Below the pieces are notes generated by a model. It was not told the DNA's origin and ran no database searches. It saw only the letters and a program-made list of their open reading frames with translations. A stretch of DNA of 64,000 nt from Planctomycetota bacterium (lineage in GTDB: Bacteria > Planctomycetota > SZUA-567 > JAFGGJ01): positions 1-64,000 of the forward strand of contig JAFGGJ010000030.1 in the NCBI GenBank assembly GCA_016930595.1, written 5' to 3'. Both the position numbers and the translations under genes were made by a program. Below are positions 4,257-60,549 of the stretch, in pieces; position 1 is the first letter of the stretch, and each line of letters opens with the position of its first letter.

Positions 4257-4847
4257 ATGCAACAGAGACAATACCTGTCAACCGGCGAACTGGCCAAGCT
4301 GTGCAACATGACGAAGCACACGGTGCTGACGGCGATAGGCAACGGAGTCATAACGACGAGCCGGACGCCCGGGGGACACCACAGGATCCACGTGGACGAG
4401 GCGAAGGTGTTCCTCGAGAGCCACGCGATACCGGTAACGAAGCTGGCGGGGGTAATGCCGTCGATCCTCGTGGTGGACGACGACAAGGACACGCTGGAGC
4501 TGATAAGACGCGCCCTCGCCAACGAGAGCGTAATAGTGGAAATGGCGAGGTGCGGGTACGACGCGGGAGCGATGGCGGCCAAGATGCGCCCGCAGCTTAT
4601 AGTGCTGGACATACTGCTGCCGGACATAGACGGGCGGACGATCTGCCGGCAGATCCGGCAGAACCCGGTATCGCGGAACACGCGCGTGCTGGCGATAAGC
4701 GGGCTGCGGGGGAAGGAAGAGGAAGAATCCATATATGCGGCGGGGGTGGACGACTACCTGCAGAAGCCGTTCAGCCTGCAGGAGCTGCGAGCGAAGATAA
4801 CGACGCTGCTGAGGCGGGCGCCACAGCCGCACGAGACCGCCCACTAG
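4257..4847 (+). CDS. N-terminal excisionase/MerR-like HTH fused to a C-terminal response-regulator receiver domain
   Basis: YLSTGELAKLCNMTKHTVLTAIGNGVITTSRTPGGHHRI (HTH), then ILVVDDDKDTLELI...LIVLDILLPDIDG...DDYLQKPF (receiver). SD-like GGAGG precedes ATG 4257. Confidence 0.85.
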   Translation: MQQRQYLSTGELAKLCNMTKHTVLTAIGNGVITTSRTPGGHHRIHVDEAKVFLESHAIPVTKLAGVMPSILVVDDDKDTLELIRRALANESVIVEMARCGYDAGAMAAKMRPQLIVLDILLPDIDGRTICRQIRQNPVSRNTRVLAISGLRGKEEEESIYAAGVDDYLQKPFSLQELRAKITTLLRRAPQPHETAH

Positions 4848-57388: not shown

Positions 57389-57970
57389 TCAATACCCCGC
57401 GATCACCCACCCCGACGCCGGGTCCTGGCAGTCGGGCAGGTAGTCGAACGGCTTCATCCCGGCGGCGTCCTTTTCGTACACCGTTCCGTCCGCGCCGATG
57501 ACGAAAGCCTTCCTGCCCGTCTTCCCGTAGACCGCAGGATAGGCCAGCAGGCCGCAGTCGCCCACGTAGCCGGGCGAACCGGTCTCGTTGATGCCGAAAT
57601 CCACGTTCTCCCCGTCCTTCACGTAGCCTTTCAGGTCGTGGAACAGGTACCCGTACTTCGCCACCGGCGCCGCCCCCTGCGCACCGTCGTCGTCCGCATT
57701 GGCCAGTTGCGCATCTATGAGCTGCAGCGGGGCGCCGCCGGCCTTGCCGTAGCAGAGCTCGTCCAGGTCGGCCGCGTATTCCAGGACGTTGTCCTGGTCG
57801 TGGTCGTTCCTGTGGAATATCGACTGTGCCGTCAGGTACACCTTCAGGCTCGCAATCGCCGCAGTCTCATTAGCGTTCATGCGGGCGGCCCCCATCCCCG
57901 CACAGGATATCACCAGGCACATCGTCACCGCCGCCGCCGTCGTTGCGGCGCCGTATGTCAAAGTCTTCAT
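57389..57970 (-). CDS. Lipoprotein, DUF2950-like (tandem paralogue 2)
   Basis: VISCAG lipobox; GYLFHDLKGYVKDGENVDFG, LLAYPAVYGKTGRKAFVIGADGTVYEKD. Confidence 0.55.
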   Translation of the reverse strand: MKTLTYGAATTAAAVTMCLVISCAGMGAARMNANETAAIASLKVYLTAQSIFHRNDHDQDNVLEYAADLDELCYGKAGGAPLQLIDAQLANADDDGAQGAAPVAKYGYLFHDLKGYVKDGENVDFGINETGSPGYVGDCGLLAYPAVYGKTGRKAFVIGADGTVYEKDAAGMKPFDYLPDCQDPASGWVIAGY

Positions 57971-58038
57971 CTTCAGCCTCCCTTGTCCGCCCTGTGGGCG
58001 TGCTGTCCGTTCTCCAGGAACGGTTATTGATCTCAGGA

Positions 58039-58620
58039 TCACTGCTCCGACATCACCCACCCCGACGCCGGGTCCTGGCAGTCGGGCAGGTAGTCGAACG
58101 GCTTCACCCCCTCGGCGCTCTTCTCGTAGATCGTCCCCTCTATCCCGATAACGAACACTTTGCTCCCGGTCTTCCCGGGGATCTCCGGGTAGGCCAGCAG
58201 CCCGCACTCCACGATGTACCCCTTCGTCCCGTCGTCGCTCACCTCGAAATCCTCGTTCTTCCCGTCGCGGACGGCCCCCTTCAGATCGTGGAACAGGTAC
58301 CCGTTCTTCGCCGCCGGCGCCGCCCCCTGCCCGCCGTCGTCGTCGGCATTGGCCATGCTGAGGTCTATCAGCTTGATGGGAACGCCGTTCTGCTGAGTGT
58401 GATAGAGCTCCTTCATGTCAGCGGCGAACTCCCGCATCCCGTCTTCGTCCTGATCCATCCTCCGGAACGTGTTTTGCGCCGACAGGTAAATCTTCAGGCA
58501 GACCTTGGCCGAAGCCTCGTTCGCGCTTATCTTCGCCGTCCTCAGGTTGGTGCACGACGCCGCAGCCAGCACCGCCGCCGCGACCGTTGCCGATACCGCC
58601 ACGCCCGTGATTTTTTTCAT
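58039..58620 (-). CDS. Lipoprotein, DUF2950-like (tandem paralogue 1)
   Basis: AAASC lipobox; same length (193 aa) and domain layout as the neighbour. Confidence 0.55.
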   Translation of the reverse strand: MKKITGVAVSATVAAAVLAAASCTNLRTAKISANEASAKVCLKIYLSAQNTFRRMDQDEDGMREFAADMKELYHTQQNGVPIKLIDLSMANADDDGGQGAAPAAKNGYLFHDLKGAVRDGKNEDFEVSDDGTKGYIVECGLLAYPEIPGKTGSKVFVIGIEGTIYEKSAEGVKPFDYLPDCQDPASGWVMSEQ

Positions 58621-58816
58621 TTTCCGCCTCCGCTCCGTCCTTGGCCTTTTCCCTCTCTTCCACCGGGCCGTTCCGGCTCCGCCCATACTAGCGCCCGCGA
58701 CCGCCCGCGCAAGTGCCGTGCTCTCCGCCGCAGGACTTCAGACGGGGTGAAAGAAAGGGGCCGCCCGGAACCCCGCCCCGGGCGGCCCGCCTCCTGAATG
58801 CGCCGGCCGGATTGCC

Positions 58817-60349
58817 TTACAGCCCCAGGATCCGCATGACCTCCCCGATGTCCGTCTCGCCCTGCGCCGAGCGCCTTATCCCGTCCGCCGCTATCGTCGT
58901 CATCCCCTGGCTTATCGCCAGCCGGCGTATCTTGTCGACGCCCTCCCCGCGCCGCAGCGCCGCCCCGACCTCGGGCGTCACCTTCAGCACCTCCGAAATC
59001 AGCGTCCGGCCAACGTATCCCGTCTGCCCGCAGGCGGCGCAGCCCTTCGGTCTCTTGAAATTGTGCTCCATGCTGTCCCAGTCGAGCCCGCCGTTGCGCG
59101 CTATCTGCTCGGCCCCCATCAGCAGGTGCCTCTCCGTCCCGTCCTGGCTGCAGTGCGGGCAGAGCTTCCGCAGCAGCCGCTGCGCCACTACTATCCTCGT
59201 CGATTCCGCCGTGACGAACGGCGGGCTGCCGATCTCCACCATCCGGATAAGCGCCGCCGCCGCATCCTCGGTATGCAGCGTCGTGAACACCAGGTGCCCT
59301 GTCAGCGCCGCCTGCTGGCATATCATCAGCACCTCGTAGTCGCGGATTTCTCCCACCAGCAACACGTCGGGGTCCGACCGCAGGAACGCCCTCACGATGT
59401 ATTCGAACGGCGTCGATCCCCCGCCCGACGAACGCAGGTTCGTCTGTGTCACCCACGGCAGGTACACTTCGATCGGGTCTTCCACCGCCATGACCTTGAT
59501 CTCCGGACCCGCCAGCTCGTTTATGCAGGCGTACATCGACGTCGTCTTGCCGCACCCCGTCGGCCCCGTGAACACGATGATCCCGTCCGGGCTCCTGATG
59601 GCGTTCCGGATCGTCGCCATGTCGTGCTCGGCGTAAGGCATTTGCTGCAGCTTCAGCACCACTCGGTCCGGCGCTATCAGCCGGGCGGTTACGCACTCCC
59701 CCAGCGGCGCCGGCAGGAAATTCACCCGCAGGTCCACCGAACGGCCCTCCGCCGGCCCCCCCTCCTCTTTCAGACGCAGCAGTATCCGCCCGTCCTGAGG
59801 CTTCGCCTTCTCGTGCAGGTCAACCGCCGCCATCGACTTCCATCTCTCCACGATCGCCGGCAGAAACCTCCTGTCGAACTTCGCTCCCACGTGCAGCACG
59901 CCGTCTATCCGGTACCGGACCACCGATTCCACCTCTCCGTCCGGCCGCATGTGCGTCGTGATGTGGATGTCGCTCGCCCCCCAGGCTTCCGCCAGCCGTA
60001 TCATCATGTTCACGGCTTCGGTCACCCCGGGTGCCGTTCCCGTCTCCGCCTCCCGCCCGGTTATCTTCGCATGGCGATCGGCAAGCTCCTTCACGAGCGG
60101 GGCTATGCTGGCCGGCAGGGCGACCTTCGGGGCTTCCCCTTTCAGGAACCGCTCCACCGCCTCCCGCTCGAACCGCCACTGTCTGCCCACCTTCAGCCCC
60201 TTGATCTTGCCCGACCGCAGCCACCGGTAGAACGTGGCACGCGTCGTTTTCAGCATTGCTATCGCTTCGCCCATGCTGAGCAGGTCCCCTCCTCCCGGCG
60301 CCCCGCCTTTCCCGTCCGCTTTCTTCTGCTTCGCCTTTGTCGCAGCCAT
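58817..60349 (-). CDS. PilB/GspE-type secretion ATPase with N-terminal excisionase/MerR-like HTH domain
   Basis: LLSMGEAIAMLKTTRATFYRWLRSGKIKGLKVGRQWRFEREAVERFLKGE (HTH_17-like) then FTGPTGCGKTTSMYA, EDPIEVYLPWVTQTNL, ILRSDPDVLLVGEIRD-like, CPHCSQ/CAACGQTGYVGRTLISEVL. Confidence 0.92.
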   Translation of the reverse strand: MAATKAKQKKADGKGGAPGGGDLLSMGEAIAMLKTTRATFYRWLRSGKIKGLKVGRQWRFEREAVERFLKGEAPKVALPASIAPLVKELADRHAKITGREAETGTAPGVTEAVNMMIRLAEAWGASDIHITTHMRPDGEVESVVRYRIDGVLHVGAKFDRRFLPAIVERWKSMAAVDLHEKAKPQDGRILLRLKEEGGPAEGRSVDLRVNFLPAPLGECVTARLIAPDRVVLKLQQMPYAEHDMATIRNAIRSPDGIIVFTGPTGCGKTTSMYACINELAGPEIKVMAVEDPIEVYLPWVTQTNLRSSGGGSTPFEYIVRAFLRSDPDVLLVGEIRDYEVLMICQQAALTGHLVFTTLHTEDAAAALIRMVEIGSPPFVTAESTRIVVAQRLLRKLCPHCSQDGTERHLLMGAEQIARNGGLDWDSMEHNFKRPKGCAACGQTGYVGRTLISEVLKVTPEVGAALRRGEGVDKIRRLAISQGMTTIAADGIRRSAQGETDIGEVMRILGL

Positions 60350-60370: not shown

Positions 60371-60403
60371 CGTATCATAATATATCATAGTGACTATGAT
60401 ACG
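60371..60403. promoter_or_regulatory. Nested dyad operator CGTATCATAATATATCATAGTGACTATGATACG
   Basis: Outer arms CGTATCATA/TATGATACG (9 bp perfect) and inner arms TATCATAG/CTATGATA (8 bp perfect); 22 bp upstream of the HTH-ATPase ATG. Confidence 0.75.
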
Positions 60404-60549
60404 CAACAACAATTTCAGGATTTTTTCCGTGCGCCGCCGGCTGAATCCACCTAACCTCTTTGTGGCCCAGGTGTTACGGCCACAAGAAAAATCCTGTTGC
60501 CGCGCGGTTCCTCTGTGCTATCATGACCTTTCGTGCAGGGAGGTGCTTC

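Follow-up and report, generated by a model that had tools for sequence, protein, structure and literature searches.

Free PutA is a repressor at its own promoter region, and engaged PutA works at the membrane (PMC8249747). BldC multimers bind direct repeats in a head-to-tail arrangement (PMC5859096). Here, we describe a gene whose product joins a winged helix of the HTH_17 type to a PilB/GspE-type ATPase. It lies in the window, which is the whole 64,000-nucleotide stretch of Planctomycetota DNA that was analyzed. Judging from the sequences of this gene and its relatives, we consider it probable that the product is an autorepressed, DNA-binding ATPase of the PilB/GspE superfamily, similar in kind to a trigger enzyme. 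The open literature library that we searched yielded no paper describing the architecture, although papers outside it may exist, and a pilus-motor-like ATPase with such a self-operator arrangement was likewise not found in the literature searched.

A winged helix joined to a PilB/GspE-type ATPase

The fusion is encoded on the minus strand by a single unbroken open reading frame (ORF) of 510 codons, as the original prediction had it, and the product (P0001) is 510 amino acids long (Table 1). Its start is ATG 60349, with a GGGAGG ribosome-binding site ahead of it; a longer version using an alternative TTG start 5′ of the operator is unlikely, because the operator would then fall within the gene. 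The worry that the N-terminus could be a separate, misannotated ORF can be set aside: the fusion is conserved across phyla and is therefore neither two ORFs nor an assembly join.

Table 1. Features of the fusion gene and its upstream region (window positions)
Feature	Position	Strand	Basis
HTH_17–T2SSE fusion gene	58817..60349	-	ORF, Pfam, AlphaFold2 model, orthologues
Winged helix (HTH_17 / excisionase-MerR-like), residues 23–71	60137..60283	-	Profiles and HTH-only model
Linker of low conservation, residues 72–108, replacing MshEN/T2SSE_N	60026..60136	-	Pfam, model, conservation
PilB/GspE-type ATPase, residues 109–506	58832..60025	-	Pfam, catalytic residues, Foldseek
Predicted three-half-site operator	60373..60401	-	Conserved across family, specific to own promoter
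Predicted sigma70-type promoter	60379..60407	-	-10 TATATT (60384–60379); -35 GTTGCG (60407–60402), poor, 2/6 matches; 17-bp spacer

Both profile and fold place the head among the HTH_17 or excisionase-like winged helices. The Pfam HTH_17 match (E 1.6e-12, 47.9 bits) lies well over the cut-off of 27, the NCBIfam excisionase domain is also above its cut-off, and the head contains a recognition segment, TTRATFYRWL, and a wing, KVGRQWRF. In the AlphaFold2 model (mean pLDDT 90.4, pTM 0.78; HTH blocks 85–92), the predicted N-terminal HTH fold appears as a winged helix at residues 23–69, followed by a weakly predicted linker and the PilB/GspE core. Folded alone, the head resembles DNA-bound BldC, RacA and the excisionase RdfS (TM ~0.75, modest E-values). 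A role as an excisionase, that is, as a recombination directionality factor, is not supported, since no integrase occurs among the nine neighbouring proteins scanned. Elsewhere in the window, a weak HTH_17 match (23.5 bits, under the family cut-off) is located at 4272–4412 on the plus strand.

The ATPase part is complete, with N2E, the RecA core, two CxxC pairs and the C-terminal helices. The motifs quoted for its description as a full GspE/PilB motor were found: GPTGCGKTTS, LVGEIRD and paired CxxC (397–400 and 437–440). The full-length T2SSE match (E 2.8e-96, 322.8 bits), Walker A, Walker B, the His box and the paired CxxC make it a member of the T2SSE superfamily (PF00437). The catalytic residues are intact (K268 in Walker A, E334 in Walker B, R336 and H359), and the core superposes on PilF, PilB and GspE with TM up to 0.93 (Foldseek). 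The protein is not, however, PilB or GspE proper: a Pfam scan found neither MshEN nor T2SSE_N in it, as had been expected, pilus genes do not adjoin, and its scores are far below the NCBIfam equivalog cut-offs (345.3 against 630.25 bits for GspE; 330.1 against 675.65 for PilB). Canonical PilB paralogues in locus L077 do carry MshEN.

A predicted operator over the promoter

The dyad that had been noticed at 60371–60403 corresponds to a predicted operator with three half-sites. On the minus strand it reads TATCATA-GTCAC-TATGATA-TAT-TATGATA, in which an inverted TATGATA pair is followed, 10 bp on, by a direct repeat, and it ends 23 nt before the ATG. It occupies the 17-bp promoter spacer and covers the -10 element. 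Many relatives have a consensus promoter, TTGACA-N17-TATAYT, and distant ones commonly show TTGACA-TATCATA-N5-TATGATA-N3-TATGATA ahead of the fusion gene. Classical MerR promoters have 19–20-bp spacers; those of this family measure 16–17 bp, and on this ground a reading as a MerR-type activator was rejected. Because the spacer is of standard length, repression is expected and not activation by DNA twisting; a putative operator laid over such a promoter has the layout typical of a steric repressor.

The operator occurs in the family far more often than expected by chance. Among 58 family upstream regions, 41 have at least 16 operator matches and 25 at least 18, where dinucleotide-preserving shuffles gave expected counts of 1.7 and 0.1, respectively. 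As the members were chosen by protein patterns, not by DNA, this footprint is independent of their selection. The operator is present in 28/41 members with the core recognition-helix signature, some of which show just a weak form, versus 2/17 divergent members (Fisher p 1e-4, a guide only, because related sequences are not independent). This would be as expected if the head reads the operator.

Other upstream regions show variations. In four of the short members described below (L107, L109, L110 and L113), GGATAAT-type repeats, read by eye, stand in the operator's place. Upstream of the genes in L046 and L047 there are four or more TATGATA-like half-sites, which could suffice for a whole ring of heads. 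The genome encodes another HTH_17 protein, which has CxxC pairs, at L002 1249–1677 on the minus strand (G000:C30); upstream of it is TTGACA followed by TATGATACAATCTGATA, a similar promoter and half-site layout.

With a weight matrix applied to both strands of 28 loci (708,380 positions), scores above 15 bits were essentially confined to the fusion gene's own promoter. The operator 19-mer with three or fewer mismatches was found once in the genome of the window. Where genomes are GC-rich, the best or sole site is usually that at the own promoter, and a looser pattern gave few other matches, close to the level of the reversed-pattern control; this looser pattern is uninformative in two carriers, where chance matches are very numerous. 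As strong matches occur essentially at the own promoter alone, single-target autoregulation is strongly predicted. The same scarcity of other good sites in the GC-rich genomes searched means that any coupling of motor state to transcription would not amount to general control of pilus genes, and a pilus-gene regulon was rejected. A one-mismatch match in C72 is probably a chance occurrence: it overlaps the start of a gene that we take to be IclR-like, and the third half-site is absent.

These patterns help to decide what the head does, for which both DNA binding and protein contact had been suggested. MerR-like folds can mediate protein contacts, and CbpM bound to the CbpA J-domain (3ucs) is among the matches to the HTH-only model; a head repurposed in the same way, with no DNA binding, is nevertheless most improbable in view of a conserved, gene-specific operator that overlaps the promoter and whose presence tracks the HTH type. 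The operator instead supports a DNA-binding head. We also consider it very unlikely that the repeats are the site of another regulator. Such a regulator would need to travel with the fusion gene, but no neighbour is conserved across phyla, and even very distant organisms have the site at the fusion promoter alone; it disappears with divergence of the HTH.

Relatives, catalytic residues and neighbouring genes

When 40 related genomes were searched with the full-length protein, this architecture turned up in seven further genomes from the class, one of which has two copies. A wider set was gathered by an alignment-based scan and HTH peptide patterns, a single-protein scan of the genome collection having given none. 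Alignment-profile matches came from Planctomycetota, Lentisphaerae, Verrucomicrobia, Hydrogenedentota and Sumerlaeota, with further ones from Sericytochromatia, Armatimonadota, Hebobacteria and Bdellovibrionales. The fusion thus occurs widely beyond the window, but its restriction to PVC bacteria, the group in which it was to be sought, does not hold, as many phyla have it. Within the phylum it is sporadic, being present in just 13/294 sampled genomes at a strict threshold.

A tree built from 120 ATPase domains unites 42 fusion proteins in a single clade (SH-aLRT 97) apart from canonical PilB/GspE; L064, labelled canonical within this clade, in fact has an HTH. The Armatimonadota and Hebobacteria members fall outside the core clade, as does a subfamily of short (~390 aa) HTH–ATPase proteins from Bdellovibrionales, Myxococcales and others (L104, L107–L111 and L113) in which the Walker B motif is destroyed; a single origin of all fusions therefore does not follow. 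A virus-borne origin is unsupported, since no viral match covered both domains, the matches being either motor ATPases or short HTH hits.

The catalytic residues vary among these proteins. The Walker B glutamate is kept in 63/63 canonical proteins, 41/50 long fusions and 0/7 short fusions; 49/50 long fusions have the Walker A lysine, and most members retain the full catalytic set. In the seven genomes that hold both, RecA core identity is 82% for canonical PilB and 48% for the fusion protein. Mean pairwise identity in the full-length-search set is 65% for the head, the highest of the domains, and 47% for the RecA core; in the wider set HTH conservation is inflated because that set was collected with HTH peptide patterns. 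Catalytic constraint is, by these comparisons, relaxed in the fusion family, and the catalytic decay seen in part of it speaks against a pure motor.

The fusion gene is usually an orphan. Its neighbours in the window are unrelated to platform, retraction or pilin genes, and the same-strand genes just 3′ of it, at 57392–58207 and 58042–58686 (minus strand), encode tandem DUF2950-like probable lipoproteins. A shared conserved neighbourhood was rejected, as synteny, divergent from gltX, is seen in close relatives alone. Among ~58 loci, linkage to pilus genes is limited to L077 (2438–9964) and L078 (5956–13503), both from Lentisphaerae, in which the fusion gene is directly 5′ of pilB-pilB-pilT-pilC, and to L104, in which a pilB is found close to a short member; L080, a close relative of L077/L078, is without that arrangement. 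Because these amount to just two independent cases, we do not take them as evidence of function. T2SSF platform proteins, which are common anyway, were found in 14/14 carrier genomes tested, and carriers hold canonical PilB/PilT paralogues.

Two alternatives turn on these data. The ATPase could be an ordinary extension motor that drives pilus or secretion assembly, with a head that just sets expression and no coupling to motor state. That the window protein keeps each catalytic residue examined is in line with this, as are the platforms in all carriers tested and the gene order in L077/L078; but the fusion ATPase diverges far faster than canonical PilB of the same genomes, the Walker B glutamate is lost in 9/50 long and 7/7 short members, and the gene usually stands alone, so that we regard an ordinary motor as possible yet doubtful. 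Alternatively, a PilB-like subunit without MshEN could act as a brake or decoy, entering canonical PilB rings on the platform or competing with them, its dosage being autorepressed. The canonical paralogues and the loss of hydrolysis residues in several lineages, with the Walker A lysine nearly always kept, would suit such a role, but retention of the full catalytic set in most members makes it rather unlikely.

Proposed mechanism and comparison with known systems

For an autorepressed ATPase, support is strongest for a head that would bind its own gene's promoter and repress it. We propose that the winged helix binds the three TATGATA half-sites over the -35/-10 region; because the half-sites lie there, bound protein would bar RNA polymerase and turn the gene off. 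A single-target autorepressor must have another output, for which the ATPase is the natural candidate, whether as a motor or as a regulator or competitor of canonical rings. The ATPase part most likely provides ATP-dependent oligomerization along with a partner to work with, probably a platform of the T4P/T2SS type; repression would come from free protein and be absent once it is engaged, as with PutA. If this is correct, a pilus/secretion-type ATPase represses its own gene, and machine state can feed directly into gene expression.

The solved relatives of the ATPase part are hexameric rings. A more tentative idea, involving ATP gating, is that a ring ATPase serves as the transcription factor: engagement with nucleotide or platform would alter the ring geometry and open or close the heads on the three-half-site operator. 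Machine occupancy would then be reported straight to the gene without a separate sensor. A family that spans many phyla, has its own operator and ranges from intact to degenerate ATPases would offer a natural series for studying what motor-type ATPases do when tied to DNA.

Comparison with described proteins shows which features are shared. MerR-family regulators have the same winged-helix type and an operator in the promoter spacer; unlike them, the fusion protein lacks a coiled coil and effector domain, its HTH being followed by a linker and the ATPase. BldC shares fold and signature with the head, but identity is just ~26–28% and the structural match moderate (TM 0.75, E 7e-3). A direct pair with 10-bp periodicity is present in the fusion operator, but so is an inverted pair, and in contrast to BldC and the excisionases the head is joined to an ATPase. 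PilB, GspE and PilF have N2E, the RecA core, Walker A/B, the His box and paired CxxC in common with the fusion protein, whereas the fusion family is mostly orphan, with a predicted DNA-binding head and relatives whose catalytic residues are relaxed. With a DNA-binding domain on an enzyme and a putative operator at its own promoter, the fusion protein looks most like the trigger enzymes PutA, BirA and NadR, which are likewise enzymes with an added DNA-binding domain. PutA is the closest working analogue; what sets the protein described here apart is an enzyme moiety of the secretion/pilus motor ATPase type.
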